Source: a virus. Taken from it: a stretch of DNA of 55,223 nucleotides. The notes beneath the pieces were generated by a model, which was given only the letters and a program-made list of their open reading frames with translations, was not told the origin of the DNA and made no database searches. A program made the translations under genes and the position numbers. Positions 24,766 to 40,577 of the stretch are shown in pieces. Within the stretch, counting starts at the first letter, position 1. Each line of letters starts with the position of its first letter. The stretch lies in IMG/VR virus record IMGVR_UViG_3300025282_000042, positions 1-55,223 of that record. The stretch is one strand, 5' to 3'.

Positions 24766-26328
24766 CTAAAAATTCCAGTACGCAACCCTCTGTTGTCTAC
24801 GGGGATTTTCGTCATCTTCCCAAGAGGGATCATCTGGGTGGCCTATACGCCAAGACTCTCTCATATAATGGACTGCCATTGTCAGGGCATCCACCTGATC
24901 ATCATGCTTTGCATGGGGAAAGGTAATTAATTCTTCTACGAGTTCATCTGCCCATCTTTTATTCTTTGGTATCCAAACTCTTCCTGCTTCAAGTAAAGGA
25001 CTTGCTGCATATACCCTTGCAACCTTATCCTTATCTGGTGTATATTCCAGAACTGGCAGACCTCCTCTTCTCATATCCTGTATAAGAGACTGTCCAGAGG
25101 CTTTCTTTTCTACAATACACACATCTGGCTTATACTCATCGTAGAGAAGCTGCGCCATTCTTCTTAGATCAGGGTATTCATAGCGTCCTCTCTGGTTTCC
25201 AAGCAGGATAAGATTACCTCCATAGTATTCTCTTCCCTTATCATCTTCTTCTGCTGTATCAAAAATACCCCATGTCTGTATGACACTGAAATCTGCAGTT
25301 GTTCTTGTACTGAACGCTGTATCATATGTCTGAATTATAAAATCACATTCAGGAGGATCGTCGTAATCCCATTCCTGTATCCACCTCTTCTTTATTACAC
25401 CCCCTTCTTCAGGGGTTGGGTTCTGCATATATAAAGAGTTCCAGTATCTGGACCCATTACTTGCAATAATCTCTTCTTCATCTATTCTTAAAATTTCATC
25501 TGGCTTCCATTCAGGAAAATAGCTTGATCCTACAGGTAAATCCAGTAATTCAGAAGCTTCATCGTCTATCCATGCAGGAATCTTTACAACTTCCCAAGGA
25601 TATGTTACTTCCATATCCATTATTTCCTGTTGTTTTAGCAACCATCCACAGAGATCATCATGATGATACCTTGTATTAATGATAACTATCGCACCATTAG
25701 GCATAATACGGGTTCTTAAGCCAGCAGGATACCATTCCTTGATATATCTCCTACCTGCTTCAGAGAAAGAGTCTTCTTCAGACATTGCATCGTCTAATAT
25801 GGCTATATGTGCACCTCTACCAGCAATCTGGCTTCGCACACCTGCCGCATAGTACGTTCCATTGTGGTTTGTCTTCCACTTTCCTGCTGCCCTTACATCT
25901 GATCTTAGAGTAACCCCCTTGAATATGTCCTGAAACTTGTCCATTCCAACAATATCTCTTACTGATCTACCGAAATCAGAAGATAGTTGGTCACTATGAG
26001 AGATTGTAAGGATTTCGTGCTCTGGATTATTACCTATATACCAAGCAGGGAATAGCTTTGAGCAGATTACAGACTTTGAACTACGAGGAGGAAGAAAGAC
26101 CATAAGCCTTTTTATCTTTCCTTCCTTAACTTTCTGTAATTTATCTGCTAAAACCCTGATGTGCTTCCCCATCTTCCAGTCAGAGACAAGGGTTGGAGCC
26201 ATTAATCTGATAAAAGACAGGAAATCATCATTACATTTGGATGTAATCCTCTGATCCAGTAAGGAATACATCGCAAGAAGACCATCATACTTGCTTATTT
26301 CTGTGTTTTCTATGTTTTGTTCTGTCAT
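24766..26328 (-). CDS. terL: Terminase large subunit
   Basis: 520 aa. The ATPase P-loop is VFLPPRSSKS (about 77-86), a non-canonical Walker A with Arg-Ser-Ser-Lys-Ser. Walker B is HIAILDD (about 174-180). The C-terminal RNase H-like nuclease shows TYDTAFS (Asp about 336), TADFSVIQTWG and KHDDQVDALTMAV. It pumps DNA into the prohead and cuts it. It is the first gene of the minus arm, with a promoter about 90 bp upstream. The small subunit candidate is far away, at 48104-48511. Confidence 0.92.
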   Translation of the reverse strand: MTEQNIENTEISKYDGLLAMYSLLDQRITSKCNDDFLSFIRLMAPTLVSDWKMGKHIRVLADKLQKVKEGKIKRLMVFLPPRSSKSVICSKLFPAWYIGNNPEHEILTISHSDQLSSDFGRSVRDIVGMDKFQDIFKGVTLRSDVRAAGKWKTNHNGTYYAAGVRSQIAGRGAHIAILDDAMSEEDSFSEAGRRYIKEWYPAGLRTRIMPNGAIVIINTRYHHDDLCGWLLKQQEIMDMEVTYPWEVVKIPAWIDDEASELLDLPVGSSYFPEWKPDEILRIDEEEIIASNGSRYWNSLYMQNPTPEEGGVIKKRWIQEWDYDDPPECDFIIQTYDTAFSTRTTADFSVIQTWGIFDTAEEDDKGREYYGGNLILLGNQRGRYEYPDLRRMAQLLYDEYKPDVCIVEKKASGQSLIQDMRRGGLPVLEYTPDKDKVARVYAASPLLEAGRVWIPKNKRWADELVEELITFPHAKHDDQVDALTMAVHYMRESWRIGHPDDPSWEDDENPRRQQRVAYWNF

Positions 26329-26638: not shown

Positions 26639-26691
26639 CTATTTAGCTCTCCATAGAACGAACTCTACGAGTTCTATGGAGAGCTAAATAG
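26639..26691 (+). repeat. Family A bulged hairpin, copy A1
   Basis: Perfect 17-bp outer stem (CTATTTAGCTCTCCATA / TATGGAGAGCTAAATAG), 4-nt bulge GAAC on the 5' side, inner stem GAACTC/GAGTTC and loop TAC. No T-run follows, so it is not an intrinsic terminator. Five further copies lie downstream in the plus arm. Confidence 0.92.
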
Positions 26692-26956: not shown

Positions 26957-27133
26957 ATGGAGCATTTGACTGGTGTTTTGTGGATCGTTCAAGACTTTGC
27001 AGAGACAAAAGGGGTTATGGTTTCAGTCAGCCCTGATGGAATTGGTTTCGATAGTCACATGCTCTCTACTGGAGAGCATATTGATTGGTCAGTAGATATC
27101 TTGGAGACAGAGATATTTATAAATAATCTTTGA
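26957..27133 (+). CDS. 58-aa early protein, unknown
   Basis: Read by eye. The ATG at 26957 has AGGAG 8 nt upstream and the stop TGA is at 27131-27133. The product begins MEHLTGVLWIVQDFAETKGV and is neutral to acidic, with SPDGIGFDSH in the middle. First gene of the plus arm, followed by hairpin A2. First-expressed small phage proteins commonly inhibit or redirect host enzymes. No family recognised. Confidence 0.65.
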   Translation: MEHLTGVLWIVQDFAETKGVMVSVSPDGIGFDSHMLSTGEHIDWSVDILETEIFINNL

Positions 27134-27141
27134 CTTTGTAG

Positions 27142-27194
27142 CTATTTATTCCCTCTAGAATGAACTCTAGTGAGTTCTAGAGGGAATTAAATAG
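27142..27194 (+). repeat. Family A bulged hairpin, copy A2
   Basis: Outer stem CTATTTATTCCCTCTA / TAGAGGGAATTAAATAG with one extra base on the right, bulge GAAT, inner stem GAACTC/GAGTTC, loop TAGT. Compared with copy A3 the outer stem differs at three base pairs, each changed on both arms so that pairing is kept. Confidence 0.93.
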
Positions 27195-27232
27195 AATTTG
27201 GATTTTTAACCGCCAACTTGGAGGATATTCCT

Positions 27233-27400
27233 ATGGCAAAACGTACAGAGAAGATTTTTCAGTCACAAAGCCCCAAAGGTCGTTGGATTACTTTTGACAA
27301 AGGCAGAGATAAATTTGCCGATATGGTCAAGAGTGGCCGCGCAATTAGGATTTTACATCCTAATGGGAACTCGAAAGTCATCGTAGGAGTTGCTGCATAG
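27233..27400 (+). CDS. 55-aa basic early protein
   Basis: Start ATG at 27233 with GGAGG 8 nt upstream. An in-frame TTG at 27218 would precede that site and is rejected. MAKRTEKIFQSQSPKGRWITF onward, Lys/Arg-rich, ending KVIVGVAA. Small beta-rich fold likely. Flanked by hairpins A2 and B1, so it forms one unit of a leader-gene cassette series. Function unknown. Confidence 0.65.
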   Translation: MAKRTEKIFQSQSPKGRWITFDKGRDKFADMVKSGRAIRILHPNGNSKVIVGVAA

Positions 27401-27462
27401 CAAAGACTTTTGAAGATGAGGGAGCGTCTTTTGGGACGTTCCCAATTCTTGAACAGTCTTTG
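27401..27462 (+). repeat. Family B composite hairpin, copy B1
   Basis: Outer arms CAAAGACT/AGTCTTTG enclose an imperfect AAGA/TCTT step and an inner stem GGGAGCGTC/GACGTTCCC (one G-T pair). It begins immediately after the stop of the 55-aa gene. Copies B2 and B3 share layout and most sequence but differ by paired changes in the inner stem. Confidence 0.85.
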
Positions 27463-27471
27463 ATTTTGTAA

Positions 27472-27524
27472 CTATTTACTCTCTATAGAATGAACTCTAG
27501 TGAGTTCTATAGAGAGTTAAATAG
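27472..27524 (+). repeat. Family A bulged hairpin, copy A3
   Basis: Outer stem CTATTTACTCTCTATA / TATAGAGAGTTAAATAG, bulge GAAT, inner GAACTC/GAGTTC, loop TAGT. Flanks are duplicated from A2: CTTTGAxTTTGTA before and AATAGAATTTGG after. Confidence 0.93.
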
Positions 27525-27529
27525 AATTT

Positions 27530-27651
27530 GGTGTTCTTTGTGGAAGATGTGTGATGTGTAGTGCAGTATTTCTTGCCAAAGCATCACTAAGACCAAGTTT
27601 GTCAGCTTGAGCCTTTCCTTTGACAAGAAGGGTCTTCCACAAAGCACACCA
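27530..27651 (+). other. Structured insert with 18-bp inverted ends (branched RNA or mini-element)
   Basis: Arms 27530-27547 and 27633-27650 pair in 17 of 18 positions (GGTGTTCTTTGTGG... with ...CCACAAAGCACACC). Inside, TAGTG/CACTA and TTGTCA/TGACAA can form two further stems, giving a three-way junction. The same flanks occur fused after hairpin A2 (AATTTGG next to ATTTTTAACC at about 27194-27210), so 27532-27650 behaves like an insert with a matching empty site. No convincing open frame with a ribosome site lies inside. Confidence 0.75.
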
Positions 27652-27859: not shown

Positions 27860-27919
27860 AAAGACTTTTGAAGGTGAGGGAATGTCCTATAGGATGTTCC
27901 CTATCCTTGAGTAGTCTTT
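27860..27919 (+). repeat. Family B composite hairpin, copy B2
   Basis: AAAGACT/AGTCTTT outer arms, AAGG/CCTT step, inner stem GGGAATGTCC-TATA-GGATGTTCCC (10 pairs, two of them wobble). It is part of a direct repeat of about 75 nt shared with B3 that also includes the preceding ATAGACCTTTTGTAA. Confidence 0.87.
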
Positions 27920-27941: not shown

Positions 27942-28058
27942 ATGAATTTAAGACGTGAAAACGATGTGAAAAAATCAAATATTAGGCATTTAATTAACTG
28001 CCTAACCTTGATTACCATTACACTGATTGTTTGCATGACAGTTATAGACCTTTTGTAA
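27942..28058 (+). CDS. 38-aa single-pass membrane peptide
   Basis: Read by eye. The ATG at 27942 is preceded by AAAGGAGATGGGT, the same leader as the preceding gene. The product has a basic start (MNLRREND) and one hydrophobic helix (LINCLTLITITLIVCMTV). Its last codons lie in the repeated ATAGACCTTTTGTAA. Too short for ordinary gene finders. The repeated leader supports real expression. Possibly an inner-membrane effector. Confidence 0.55.
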   Translation: MNLRRENDVKKSNIRHLINCLTLITITLIVCMTVIDLL

Positions 28059-28118
28059 AAGACTTTTGAAGGTGAGGGAGCATCCTTTAGGATGTTCCCT
28101 ATCCTTGAACAGTCTTTG
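28058..28118 (+). repeat. Family B composite hairpin, copy B3
   Basis: AAAGACT/AGTCTTT outer arms, AAGG/CCTT step and inner GGGAGCATCC-TTTA-GGATGTTCCC. Relative to B2 the inner stem changes T-G to C-G and G-T to A-T, keeping pairing. Followed by CCATAGCAAAGGAAGG, a variant of the shared leader. Confidence 0.87.
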
Positions 28119-28145
28119 ACCATAGCAAAGGAAGGAAAGTAAATT

Positions 28146-30213: not shown

Positions 30214-30265
30214 CTATATAGACCCTATAGAGTGAGTTCTACGAACTCTATAGGGTTCTATATAG
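30214..30265 (+). repeat. Family A bulged hairpin, copy A4
   Basis: Outer stem CTATATAGACCCTATA / TATAGGGTTCTATATAG (one extra base at right), bulge GAGT, inner stem GAGTTC/GAACTC and loop TAC. The inner stem is inverted relative to A1-A3 but pairing is retained. It lies 5 bp upstream of a strong promoter. Confidence 0.92.
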
Positions 30266-30317: not shown

Positions 30318-30545
30318 ATGAAGTACGATCACCAGATGCCAGAAATTAATTTACACGAAGTTAATGAAGTTACGGCAGAAAGAACTAATCACAATTACTT
30401 TTCAACTACAAGGGTAAGGGTTGGTAGTGAGAATGGTGGAGGATTAAAAGCTGTATTATATCATGACCCTGACTTAGTGATAGAGGTAAAGGTAAGGAAA
30501 CGTACAGATGCAGAAAAGAAAAGAGAAGAAAAGAAAGCTGCCTAA
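30318..30545 (+). CDS. Early hypothetical protein, 75 aa
   Basis: MKYDHQMPEINLHEVNEVTA onward, with a beta middle and a highly charged C-terminus (KVRKRTDAEKKREEKKAA). First gene behind the 30270 promoter with a TTAGGAGA site. Unknown. Confidence 0.68.
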   Translation: MKYDHQMPEINLHEVNEVTAERTNHNYFSTTRVRVGSENGGGLKAVLYHDPDLVIEVKVRKRTDAEKKREEKKAA

Positions 30546-34442: not shown

Positions 34443-34644
34443 ATGGATGGTGCGTCTAAAGAATAAAAATCAAACAGCAAGTTGGAGATTTAATTCAAAA
34501 AGAAAAGCAGAAGACTTTTTAAATGATAGAAGAAAACTTGTGCAACACTTAGGATATGACCCCGATCAGGTGTACTTATTAGTTCCTGTAGAGAGAGTTC
34601 TTACGAACTCTACAGGGACTAATAAAAATAGGAGAGGAGTATGA
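34435..34644 (+). CDS. 69-aa protein whose end encodes hairpin A5
   Basis: ATG 34435 (GGGAG 7 nt upstream) is preferred over an in-frame ATG at 34414. MDRWMVRLKNKNQTASWRFN onward, a small basic alpha/beta protein (RRKLVQHLGYDPDQVYLL). Its last 23 codons include the family A hairpin A5 (34576-34625). The reading frame passes through the hairpin, and the stop overlaps the helicase-primase start (34641). Confidence 0.6.
   Translation: MDRWMVRLKNKNQTASWRFNSKRKAEDFLNDRRKLVQHLGYDPDQVYLLVPVERVLTNSTGTNKNRRGV
34576..34625 (+). repeat. Family A bulged hairpin, copy A5 (inside coding sequence)
   Basis: Outer stem TTATTAGTTCCTGTA / TACAGGGACTAATAA with one T-G pair, bulge GAGA, inner GAGTTC/GAACTC, loop TTAC. 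It ends 15 nt before the start codon of the helicase-primase, with the ribosome site (GGAGAGGAG) directly after it. Confidence 0.9.
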
Positions 34645-36284
34645 CTAGTCAATTTATTAAACACGTTGCTTGTGAAAATTGCGGATCATCTGATGGTAAT
34701 GGTTTATATGATGATGGTCATCAGTATTGTTTTGTCTGTGAAACATTTATTTCTAATGAGGAAGGTGACGAAATGCCAGACACTGTAAAGAAGGCTCCCA
34801 TACAGGGAGTATATACAAACATTTTATCTAAGGGAATTCTATCTGAAATTCCTGATAGGCGATTAACTTTATCTACTTGTAAGTCTTACGGAGTTACAGT
34901 TGAGCTAACTAATGAGGCTGTTACAAAACATATATATCCTTATTATAATGCTGAAGGACATCATGTAGGAAATAAAACTAGGGTAGTAGCAACAAAAGAA
35001 TTTAGATCAGAAGGTAATATAAGTGATGGTGTTCTGTTTGGTCAGAACAAGTTTGATCCAACAGGAAAGTATATTACTGTTACAGAGGGAGAGCTAGACG
35101 CATTGGCATGTTACCAAATATTTGGTTCTAAATGGCCTTGTGTTTCAGTTAAGTCTGCTTCTTCAGCATTAGCAGACTGTAAGAAAAACTTTAAGTATTT
35201 AAATTCTTTTGATAATATTGTATTATGTTTTGATAATGATCTGGCAGGAAGAACTGCAGCCAATAAAGTTGCAGCTATTTTCGAGCCACATAAATGTAAG
35301 ATTGTAAATCTTAAATCTTTTAAAGATGCAAGTGATTATCTAAAGGCTGGACAAAGGGAAGAGTTCATTCAGCTATGGTGGAATGCTACACCTTATACTC
35401 CTGCTGGTCTTATAAATCTAGGAACTCTTGGTTCTTCTTTATATGAAGAAAATTATTGTGAAACTGTGAGCTATCCTTGGACTGGACTTAATGAGAAAAT
35501 CTATGGGATAAGAACTGGTGAGCTTGTTACCTTTACCAGTGGTACTGGGATGGGTAAGAGTAGTGTACTCAGAGAGTTAATGTATCACATTATGAAAAAT
35601 ACAGAGGATAACATAGGGATATTTGCTTTAGAGGAAAGCATAAAGAATACTGCATTTAATATCATGTCCGTAGAGGCTAACCAAAGATTATACATTAAGG
35701 AAATCAGAGATACATTTTCATTAGAACAGCTAAAGGAGTGGGAGAATAATACCATTGGAACGAATAGGTTTGTAGCCTTCGATCACTTTGGTTCTATGTC
35801 TAATGAAGATATCCTTGGGCTTGTCAGGTTTATGTCTAATGCACTGGACTGTAAGTGGGTAGTTCTTGACCATATATCAATGGTTATTTCTGGACAGCAG
35901 GACGGGGATGAAAGACGTAACATAGATAACTTGATGACTAACTTAAGAAAGATCGTCGAGGAGTGTAATATTTCTCTGCTTGTTGTGTCTCACCTCAGAA
36001 GGACATCTTCTGATAGAGGACATGAGGAAGGAAGAGAAGTATCTTTAGCCCACCTTAGAGGATCACAGAGCATAGCTCAACTGTCTGATGCTGTTATAGC
36101 CTTAGAACGTAACCAACAGTCTGAAGACCCAACAGAAGCGAACACTACAACCATAAGGATATTGAAAAATAGATATACAGGAGAGACAGGTATAGCTACC
36201 TACTTGTTTTATGATAAGGAAAGTGGTAGAATGTCAGAAATATCTAATCCTTTTGAAGGAGACAGCGATGAGGTGCATAGTTGA
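34641..36284 (+). CDS. Replicative helicase-primase (T7 gp4 type)
   Basis: 547 aa. N-terminal zinc-binding primase domain with Cys at 11, 14, 30 and 33. Toprim domain with VTEGELDAL (about 146-154) and FDNDLAG (about 197). C-terminal RecA-like helicase with Walker A SGTGMGKSS (about 298-306), Walker B WVVLDH (about 405) and SHLRRTSSDRGHEEG near 450. It unwinds the fork and lays primers for the polymerase encoded next (17-bp overlap). Order and architecture match T7 gene 4. Confidence 0.93.
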   Translation: MTSQFIKHVACENCGSSDGNGLYDDGHQYCFVCETFISNEEGDEMPDTVKKAPIQGVYTNILSKGILSEIPDRRLTLSTCKSYGVTVELTNEAVTKHIYPYYNAEGHHVGNKTRVVATKEFRSEGNISDGVLFGQNKFDPTGKYITVTEGELDALACYQIFGSKWPCVSVKSASSALADCKKNFKYLNSFDNIVLCFDNDLAGRTAANKVAAIFEPHKCKIVNLKSFKDASDYLKAGQREEFIQLWWNATPYTPAGLINLGTLGSSLYEENYCETVSYPWTGLNEKIYGIRTGELVTFTSGTGMGKSSVLRELMYHIMKNTEDNIGIFALEESIKNTAFNIMSVEANQRLYIKEIRDTFSLEQLKEWENNTIGTNRFVAFDHFGSMSNEDILGLVRFMSNALDCKWVVLDHISMVISGQQDGDERRNIDNLMTNLRKIVEECNISLLVVSHLRRTSSDRGHEEGREVSLAHLRGSQSIAQLSDAVIALERNQQSEDPTEANTTTIRILKNRYTGETGIATYLFYDKESGRMSEISNPFEGDSDEVHS

Positions 36285-38703: not shown

Positions 38704-38752
38704 CTATTCAATCTGAAGAACGAACTCTAGTGAGTTCTTCAGATATGAATAG
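38704..38752 (+). repeat. Family A bulged hairpin, copy A6
   Basis: Outer stem CTATTCAATCTGAA / TTCAGATATGAATAG (one extra base at right), bulge GAAC, inner GAACTC/GAGTTC, loop TAGT. Lies between the HTH gene and the single-strand binding protein gene. Confidence 0.92.
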
Positions 38753-38794: not shown

Positions 38795-39274
38795 ATGGCA
38801 GTTATTTCAGGAACAGCTTACTGGGCTAGTATAGCCAGCCCTAACACAACCTTTGACGAGGATGGTGTTTGGACAGTTGATGTATGTCAATTAGATGCGT
38901 CAACTAAGAAGTTTGTAAAGGGTATTGGTCTTCCCATCAAGAACAAAGGGGATGACCGTGAGGATTTTGTGACGGTGAAACGTAAGGTTCGTCGCAAAGG
39001 TGGAGGCGTAAACCGTTCTCCAAACTTGGTAGACTCTGAACTAAAACCAATGTACAATACTCTCATTGGTAACGGCTCAAAGGTAAATGTACGTTTCAAC
39101 ACCTATGAGTGGGAGTTTGGAGGTAAATCAGGTACAAGTGCTGATCTTGTGGGGGTACAGGTAGTTGAACTTGTACCTTATGGCACTGATGGTACTGCTG
39201 AAGAAAAGGCTTTTGAGGCAGTATCAGGTGGGTACTCTTCTTCTGAAGAAGATATCCCTTTTCCCTCTAACTAA
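38795..39274 (+). CDS. Single-stranded DNA-binding protein (T7 gp2.5/DUF2815-like)
   Basis: 159 aa. Single OB-like domain (GTAYWASIASPNTTFDEDGV; RKVRRKGGGVNRSPN) with an acidic flexible tail ending SSSEEDIPFPSN. The acidic tail of T7 gp2.5 recruits polymerase and helicase. Here the tip contains DIPF, the same four residues that end bacterial SSB. Good AAGGAG site, own terminator downstream. High expression expected. Confidence 0.78.
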   Translation: MAVISGTAYWASIASPNTTFDEDGVWTVDVCQLDASTKKFVKGIGLPIKNKGDDREDFVTVKRKVRRKGGGVNRSPNLVDSELKPMYNTLIGNGSKVNVRFNTYEWEFGGKSGTSADLVGVQVVELVPYGTDGTAEEKAFEAVSGGYSSSEEDIPFPSN

Positions 39275-39340: not shown

Positions 39341-40219
39341 ATGAAAAAAATAGATACCTTAGTAGAAGATATATATGATCTCTTTACCGATGCGTCCTCT
39401 GTTGATAAAGACGATCTAAAATTATCTGCTAGACAGCTATCAAGAGCTATAACAAATCATGTTGTAAACAGGTTACTTGAAAGTAAACAACCTAAAAGGA
39501 AAAGAACCTTAAGGATGTCTCAGGTGGGTAAACCTCTGAGGCAACTCTGGTATGATTTAAAGGAATATCCTGTTAATGAAAAACCTTTACCTCATAATCA
39601 GATTAAATTTCTGTACGGAAATATTCTTGAAGAGCTTTTACTTTTCTTAGCTAAAGCTGCTGGTCATACTGTTGAGGAGGAACAAAAGAAAGTTGAACTG
39701 GACGGTGTAAGAGGACATAAGGATTGTCGTATTGATGGCGTAACAGTAGATGTAAAGAGTGCTTCTTCTTATTCCTTTAAAAAGTTTGAGAGCAACACAG
39801 TGGGACAGGATGATCCCTTTGGATATATCTCACAACTTTCAGGCTATGCACAAGCAGAAGGAGATAGGGAAGCTGCTTTCCTAGCTATTGATAAACAGAA
39901 TGGGAAGCTGGCTCTTTCACCTCTACATGAACTTGAATTTGATAATGTATCTCAAAGGATAGGAAAAATTAGAAAGGCTTTGGATTCCGATATCCCACCT
40001 GAGAGATGCTATTCAGATGTACCAGAAGGTAAAACAGGAAACAGAAAGCTTAGTATTGGTTGTAGTTATTGCCCTTATAAATTCTTTTGTTGGAGTGATA
40101 TAAATGAGGGTAGAGGTTTAAGAACATTCCGTTATGCAAATGGTCCTAGATTTTTTACAAGGATTGTTAAACAGCCTAACGTAGAAGAAATTCCTTCTGG
40201 AATGACAAATGAAAACTAA
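39341..40219 (+). CDS. PD-(D/E)XK exonuclease with Cys cluster (Cas4/RecB-like)
   Basis: 292 aa. Catalytic pattern: GNILEELLLFLAKAAGH, RGHKDCRIDGVTVDVKSAS (D...DxK) at about residues 125-148. C-terminal CxxCx5C in IGCSYCPYKFFCW with a further Cys in RCYSDV gives four Cys, as in Fe-S RecB/Cas4 nucleases. It probably acts as the phage recombination or host-degradation exonuclease, taking the place of T7 gp6, next to endonuclease I. Confidence 0.7.
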   Translation: MKKIDTLVEDIYDLFTDASSVDKDDLKLSARQLSRAITNHVVNRLLESKQPKRKRTLRMSQVGKPLRQLWYDLKEYPVNEKPLPHNQIKFLYGNILEELLLFLAKAAGHTVEEEQKKVELDGVRGHKDCRIDGVTVDVKSASSYSFKKFESNTVGQDDPFGYISQLSGYAQAEGDREAAFLAIDKQNGKLALSPLHELEFDNVSQRIGKIRKALDSDIPPERCYSDVPEGKTGNRKLSIGCSYCPYKFFCWSDINEGRGLRTFRYANGPRFFTRIVKQPNVEEIPSGMTNEN

Positions 40220-40577
40220 GTATAAATCTCAGCTAGAGGTTGATACAGCAAAACATCTTAAAGAAAATAAGATGAAAGCACGTTACGAAAAGAAACGACT
40301 CCCCTATCTTTGGGTAGAGGAGAAGCATTATATACCAGACTTCTTTCTATCTAATGGGGTGATACTGGAATGTAAAGGAAGGTTCACTCTTGCAGATAGA
40401 AAGAAGATGCTGTTCATTAAAGAGCAGTATCCAGACATGGACATCAGGTTTGTCTTCTCTAATCCAAAACAGAAGCTTTGGAAAAAAGGAAAGATGACCT
40501 ACGGTAGGTGGTGTGAGAAGAACGGATATCTATATTGTAAAGCAGCAGAAGGAATTCCTGCAGACTGGTTACAGTAG
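40209..40577 (+). CDS. Endonuclease I, Holliday-junction resolvase (T7 gp3-like)
   Basis: 122 aa. Catalytic residues Glu10, Asp44, Glu54 and Lys56 (SQLEVDT, YIPDFFL, ILECKG) keep the spacing of T7 endonuclease I. It resolves branched DNA before packaging and breaks host DNA. It overlaps the exonuclease gene by 11 bp. Branched or cruciform DNA formed by the long family A hairpins would be a potential substrate (inference). Confidence 0.9.
   Translation: MKTKYKSQLEVDTAKHLKENKMKARYEKKRLPYLWVEEKHYIPDFFLSNGVILECKGRFTLADRKKMLFIKEQYPDMDIRFVFSNPKQKLWKKGKMTYGRWCEKNGYLYCKAAEGIPADWLQ

Follow-up and report, generated by a model that had tools for sequence, protein, structure and literature searches.

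Why do two neighbouring hairpins in a phage genome differ at several stem positions and still keep every one of their pairs? We addressed this question in an uncultivated virus record (IMG/VR IMGVR_UViG_3300025282_000042), of which positions 1 to 55,223 were analysed as a single 55,223-nt stretch, hereafter the window. The record represents a tailed phage with structural genes on the minus strand up to terL (24766–26328) and early and replication genes on the plus strand from 26957. Its nearest isolates are the Pelagibacter phages HTVC027P and HTVC023P by terL (37–40% identity) and HTVC115P by primase-helicase (50% identity). The two hairpins, A2 and A3, lie at the beginning of the early block.

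A duplicated hairpin differs by three compensated base pairs

Hairpin A2 occupies 27142–27194 on the plus strand, with the loop TAGT at 27168–27171; its 5′ arm carries GAA twice (27158–27160 and 27162–27164), which creates a slidable 5′ bulge, and its 3′ arm has an additional T near 27188. Hairpin A3 lies at 27472–27524 on the same strand. Both fold much more stably than shuffled sequence (z = −7.1 for A2 and −6.1 for A3), and they score 45.2 and 47.1 bits, respectively, against the covariance model described below. They differ at 6 of 53 positions, and these six make up exactly three base pairs, all fully compensated: T-A at 27149–27186 of A2 is C-G at 27479–27516 of A3, C-G at 27152–27183 is T-A at 27482–27513, and C-G at 27155–27180 is A-T at 27485–27510. 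The loop, the bulge and the remaining pairs are identical. A preliminary description of this DNA had reported these three compensated differences, and it proved exact to the base, with the hairpins correctly placed. Under a simple combinatorial model (53 nt, about 20 pairs, random placement), the chance that six random substitutions yield three complete restored pairs is about 2 × 10⁻⁶.

The extent of the duplication needed correction. About 77 bp had been regarded as clear duplicates with few changes outside the stems; the hairpin is indeed duplicated, but the flanks carry changes at 7 of 34 aligned positions, most of them at the 5′ extremity. An ungapped alignment of 27115–27201 with 27445–27531 contains 13 differences in 87 positions, six of them in the 53-nt hairpin, and the duplication essentially covers the hairpin together with about 15 nt of 5′ and 7 nt of 3′ flank. 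A2 and A3 stand before different genes; the one following A2 (27233–27400, plus strand) encodes a 55-aa protein, ORF55.

Other structured elements occupy the same region. A second hairpin family, AAAGACT...AGTCTTT, is present at 27402–27463, 27860–27919 and 28058–28119 (z = −5.8 to −7.4); the copies at 27860 and 28058 lie just before a Shine–Dalgarno (SD) sequence and ATG, and the family recurs in the related contigs L004/L005, where the intervening small genes are arranged differently. An inverted repeat (27529–27547 and 27633–27651, 95% complementary) lies between A3 and the gene that follows it and encloses about 85 nt.

A2 and A3 belong to a dispersed family

A2 and A3 are members of a dispersed, gene-linked family that the preliminary description had missed. 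We defined a descriptor requiring a bulge of 3–6 nt on the 5′ arm, an inner stem of at least 4 bp and an outer stem of at least 12 bp, which A2, A3 and four further hairpins of the window satisfy. A covariance model built from 51 copies likewise found six family copies in the window, all between 26639 and 38752 on the plus strand, the strand of the early and replication genes; weaker minus-strand matches are mirror images of the same palindromes. A1 (26639–26691, plus strand; 34.0 bits, z = −9.4) is placed between the divergent terL and the early gene block and has 19 outer pairs, a 4-nt bulge and the loop TAC. The remaining three, also on the plus strand, precede genes: the copy at 30214–30265 (38.0 bits) lies before an ORF of 75 aa (30318–30545); that at 34576–34625 (52.6 bits), with a mid-stem U.G wobble, lies directly 5′ of the primase-helicase gene (34641–36284, plus strand; phrog_239); and that at 38704–38752 (32.2 bits) lies before the gene for a Gp2.5-like ssDNA-binding protein (SSB; 38795–39274, plus strand; phrog_112).

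Several observations adjoin these sites. Near the place of A1, L005 carries at about 2581–2644 a longer hairpin that shares the TGAG bulge and differs in its stem. In the close relatives L208 (3957–4117) and L209 (2112–2272), a 153-bp stretch with a 56-aa ORF separates the hairpin from the primase-helicase gene; it is missing from the window at 34623–34640, and two similar SD leaders are found there. The primase-helicase genes of G008, G010 and G029 each contain one in-frame TGA within an otherwise open match, attributable to recoding, a frameshift or an error. The same palindrome-rich genome also encodes a T7-type endonuclease I (40209–40577; PF05367, E = 4.5 × 10⁻³⁹), an enzyme type that cuts DNA junctions.

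Beyond the window, the descriptor identified 146 distinct core-like hairpins in 137 loci among 290 loci of related phage contigs (3.14 Mb), and merging hairpins with up to 3 differences left 116 clusters. In the first set searched, there were 137 matches to the descriptor and 6 in block-shuffled sequence. One version of the core was recovered by pattern scan from 109 viral-contig stretches and was absent from bacterial and archaeal genomes (one genome per species, 84,980 species). Relatives of window proteins are encoded as well by 83 of the 107 loci L324–L430 and are missing from the other 24. The family hairpin was absent from four of the 11 contigs reached via terL relatives (G002, G004, G005 and G006), and the element has therefore been gained and lost.

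Searches of existing resources returned no known counterpart. No family hairpin exceeded the gathering threshold in Rfam 15, where subthreshold matches were mostly to microRNA models and the sole match in the window was a tRNA. We found no family hairpin in the isolates HTVC115P (whole sequence) or HTVC027P, HTVC023P, DSL-LC04, 023Pt_psg01, HTVC103P and HTVC104P (partial sequences), and blastn of phage and plasmid collections, with either the window region or individual elements as query, retrieved no isolated-phage copy. Searches of the open-access PMC literature yielded no description of these hairpins, and a limited term search of a study of HTVC023P-type pelagiphages (PMC9599517) gave no match. 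The hairpins are a previously undescribed RNA-type family in marine phages.

Some features of the sampling bear on the counts. Short-core pattern searches pulled in many chance loci, which make up most of L095–L201 and were excluded from the family counts; L111, L112, L118, L124, L142, L147, L153, L160 and L172 were kept from that range, and the off-family matches L210 and L275 were removed. The core set was defined by a loop-motif filter that lost at least one genuine variant (L012:801). Assemblies may break at palindromes, as the contigs L001 and L002 end in A1. A fairer subset of 36 hairpins comprises those from protein-fetched loci together with the window.

Shape is conserved and stem sequence is not

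Family copies are about 50–56 nt long and consist of an AT-rich outer stem, a mid-stem flaw at 13–17 nt from the loop, 8–9 bp, a 5′ bulge of 3–5 nt, a further 4–6 bp and a small loop, which is UUAC, UAC or UAGU. The flaw may be U.G, A.G, another mismatch or a 1-nt bulge; in 52 of 58 elements the first irregularity falls 11–17 nt from the loop, in one it falls at 23, and five have none. The 5′ bulge itself is present in every member by definition of the descriptor. It is commonly slidable, in that the 5′ arm holds two copies of a triplet (AGT..AGT, GAA..GAA) and the 3′ arm a single complement of it. This arrangement was found in 85 of the 116 clusters, where the null averaged 7.3 and never exceeded 15, although slide and loop counts over all clusters are inflated by pattern scans that contained the repeated triplet (one also the loop); in the protein-fetched subset with the window, it was found in 22 of 36 hairpins, compared with 2.1 in the null. 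The apex is the most conserved part, with A16, C20, T21 and G25 invariant in 51 copies. The stem sequence, by contrast, turns over almost freely, and the shape is kept.

The 51 gapless copies provide 816 cells, of which 93.5% hold standard pairs and 260 hold double changes, as against 75 double changes in shuffles. The covariation score was 0.80 compared with 0.19 in shuffles, and displacing the partner by one column reduced it to 0.23 at most. The descriptor forces Watson–Crick pairs in columns 7–12 and 17–20, so that failures cannot appear there; in columns 1–6, where pairing is not required, 253 of 306 cells are paired and 118 carry double changes.

We then considered changes between near relatives. 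When 58 copies were joined in a minimum spanning forest, we counted 23 Watson–Crick-to-Watson–Crick double changes in 19 comparisons, together with 24 one-sided changes between pair and mismatch that mostly come from indel-shifted comparisons. Near pairs free of indels are cleaner: L024:807/L033:5079 and L111:417/L111:1162 each show one compensated pair, L008:59/L008:1128 shows two, and L024:807/L033:3781 shows two along with a G.A-to-A.G swap. The exceptions are L172/A1, with one single-sided change to G.U, and L061:7938/8947, with one change to G.U and one between pair and mismatch. The preliminary description had named homologues with many uncompensated stem changes as the finding that would speak against it; that comparison was carried out, the Watson–Crick-to-Watson–Crick changes of near pairs were compensated, and the reading survived.

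Wobble pairs are also unevenly distributed between the strands. Within 18 nt of the loop, a symmetric count gave 14 G.U and no A.C (p = 6 × 10⁻⁵), most of the 14 being at the conserved mid-stem position 13–14 and hence not independent wobble intermediates. Over whole extended stems, the ratio of G.U to A.C was 27:12 (p = 0.012), with the A.C cases at least 22 nt from the loop; a first, unfiltered count of 31:25 had included off-family matches and run-on ends. This asymmetry points to a role as a single strand of defined sense.

Family hairpins precede the start codons of particular genes

An SD sequence and start codon follow 5–75 nt downstream of the hairpin in the sense direction in 86 of 116 clusters and in the antisense direction in 11; of the 36 hairpins in the protein-fetched subset with the window, 26 and 4, respectively, are so followed, given a simple gene caller that misplaced some start distances. 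The 86 hairpins are thus located between cistrons and close 5′ of a start codon, as T7-type processing sites are. The SD lies outside the hairpin and is not sequestered by it. Predicted accessibility from SD to start was 0.57 with the hairpin and 0.45 with the hairpin shuffled (n = 86). In 28 of 103 cases, the stop codon of an upstream open frame falls at −3 to +8 of the hairpin start.

Linkage to individual genes was assessed through their homologues. A hairpin was found in 10 of 13 regions upstream of ORF55 homologues (38–49% identity), with very different stems, in 15 of 98 upstream of primase-helicase homologues, in 5 of 59 upstream of SSB homologues, in both regions tested for ORF75 (near relatives) and in the one region tested for ORF58 not at all; the matches L316, L090 and L093 are not independent evidence, being almost the same sequence as the window. 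Ten control genes, one of which had no testable homologue, gave 0 of 98 upstream regions in sum. Among the 104 hairpins with a called downstream gene, primase-helicase and ORF55-like genes form the largest groups, with 14 each, and 42 of 52 downstream protein groups are singletons. As 83 of the 98 primase-helicase homologues lack the hairpin, it is not indispensable.

ORF55 and 19 homologues form an unnamed small protein family with a motif like RVLHPSGSFKVI, and the predicted fold of ORF55 is beta-beta-alpha-beta-beta (pLDDT 84). A known RNA-binding fold was considered for this protein and not adopted: there was no PDB match at E ≤ 0.001, the window member has no Pfam match, and Pfam gave just weak single-member matches in the family.

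The hairpins probably act in the transcript

We favour a hairpin of leaders and intercistronic gaps because the conserved geometry, the covariation, the slidable bulge, the position, the gene linkage, the strand-specific wobble and the lack of a U-run all fit it. Judged on these sequence features, it is probable that the hairpin is a functional element of the transcribed RNA. What acts on it is a separate matter, and an RNase III-type nuclease is our tentative candidate. Taken as a whole, the proposal that A2 and A3 are cis-acting mRNA hairpins recognised by shape, most likely as RNase III-type processing sites, is offered with similar reserve. The phage clade would set a hairpin in the leader or intercistronic gap just 5′ of the SD of chosen early and replication genes. 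Recognition would be by shape, through a helix of about 22 bp, a movable 5′ bulge and the mid-stem flaw, and an RNase III-type endonuclease would separate the cistrons and leave the downstream ribosome-binding site free. Folding suggests that the hairpin keeps the SD region open, which could serve either processing or a binding protein. Among phages that carry a T7-like replication module, the best-known device in such a position is the RNase III processing hairpin of the T7 early region.

Several results count against the proposal, among them the weaker wobble bias over whole stems, the many primase-helicase homologues that lack the hairpin and the absence of this geometry from the T7 early region. 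A phage-encoded RNase III was found in none of 11 phage records searched, and the enzyme would therefore be the host's. In addition, 14 of 116 hairpins have TTGACA in the 32 nt that precede them, compared with 10 of 449 controls, as in L066, L112, L124, L147 and L014, the first with TATAAT inside the hairpin base; some promoters would therefore overlap the 5′ arm, and some transcripts may lack the full hairpin.

The main rival to a processing site is a binding protein. A phage or host RNA-binding protein may read the bulge and apical loop as a translational operator, tuning ORF55, primase-helicase, SSB and other early genes, and its binding could select between the two registers of the bulge. 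We consider this possible but doubtful. It would account for the invariant apical bases, for the sliding of the bulge (85 of 116, with the inflation noted above) and for the persistence of hairpins beside particular genes, the ORF55 family standing behind 14 of 104; yet the SD lies outside the hairpin, and searches of Pfam and of PDB folds (E ≤ 0.001) gave no match for ORF55. A related suggestion from the sequence patterns, which we likewise regard as no better than a possibility to be entertained, is dedicated post-transcriptional control, with a bistable switch based on the sliding bulge, or a cleavage gauge, placed before a few early genes (the 55-aa protein, primase-helicase and SSB) and read by a protein blind to stem sequence. 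Stem divergence may also prevent cross-pairing or recombination between copies.

The hairpin might instead be a passive spacer that insulates cistrons by halting upstream ribosomes and keeping the SD open, with no specific partner. The higher predicted SD accessibility and the upstream stop codons clustered at the hairpin start agree with such a role, but a spacer has no need of a conserved slidable bulge and mid-stem flaw, and we find it unlikely.

A DNA-level role, in which a single-stranded or cruciform hairpin serves recombination or marks a cassette boundary (attC- or REP-like), perhaps as a substrate of endonuclease I, appears quite unlikely. Gene content does vary beside the hairpins, as with the small ORF of L208 and L209 that the window lacks, one genome may contain several identical or near-identical hairpins, and the phage encodes the endonuclease. 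Against this, such an element would require neither the strand bias relative to start codons nor the SD spacing, and the 153-bp indel is flanked by two similar SD leaders. The analysis gave no evidence of a target-site duplication, an integrase or a REP transposase, and the window proteins scanned, which were part of the proteome, included no integrase.

The compensated changes might also arise without any RNA role, if arm-to-arm copying by template switching or gene conversion during DNA replication maintained the palindromes. The preliminary description had offered selection and such conversion as the two explanations; our results support selection on shape and do not support conversion as the principal cause. 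Template switching is reported to yield paired stem changes (PMC8794818), and the clean near pairs do change from Watson–Crick to Watson–Crick on both sides. Copying should, however, straighten stems, yet the bulge and the flaw persist, one flaw even passing from G.A to A.G; it should sometimes invert loops, yet TTAC never appears as GTAA (0 of 116); and it does not predict G.U without A.C near the loop, gene linkage or a preferred orientation. Arm-to-arm copying by itself leaves the conserved flaws unexplained and is very unlikely as the whole account, although conversion may be one source of the paired changes.

Intrinsic transcription terminators, suggested by strong hairpins in intergenic gaps, are extremely improbable, as at least five T in the next 8 bases follow only 3 of 116 hairpins (mean T fraction 0.22), and the lack of a T-run after the 3′ arm rules out the classical type. 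T7-like RNA polymerase promoters and N4-like hairpin promoters were weighed by eye only.

The family is an undescribed class of structured-RNA type that is frequent in uncultivated marine phage contigs. If its members are processing or binding sites, they would provide a natural series of substrates, equivalent in shape and different in sequence, for studying recognition by an RNase III-type enzyme or an RNA-binding protein. Their conserved flaws can be followed between copies, which makes it easier to tell selection from template switching as a cause of stem change.

Comparison with known systems

The MS2 coat-protein operator and TAR-like hairpins bear their bulge on the 5′ side only, a few pairs beneath a small loop, and are recognised by shape. 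The family shares the layout of bulge and loop, but its lower stem is much longer and the SD lies outside the hairpin. Integron attC sites and REP hairpins conserve shape over sequence, have extrahelical bases and are repeated between small genes. Shape conservation, extrahelical bases and repetition between small genes are common to them and the family, which differs in lying mostly upstream of an SD and in showing no conserved cleavage box. Paired, seemingly simultaneous stem changes are a likeness to template-switch hairpins (PMC8794818); the family is set apart by its gene linkage, by the fixed orientation of its loop and by the asymmetry and flaws that its members conserve.

The T7 RNase III sites (R0.3–R1.3) resemble the family as intercistronic hairpins of about 60 nt among early genes, near start codons and with internal irregularities, and the window phage shares a T7-like replication module with T7. 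Sites other than R1.1 presumably lie at the positions folded here. R1.1 is given as a 60-nt hairpin with an asymmetric internal loop that is an RNase III processing site (PMC6121014). As folded here, the T7 sites carry a two-sided internal loop and have their upper stem in common. Family members are bulged on the 5′ arm alone, close to the apex and in a slidable way, their loop is UUAC, UAC or UAGU, and their stems change freely; a search of the T7 early region (L323) with the descriptor and with covariance model R1 gave no match. Because the geometry differs from that of T7, we class the family hairpin as an element that would work like such a processing site, not as a member of the T7 group.
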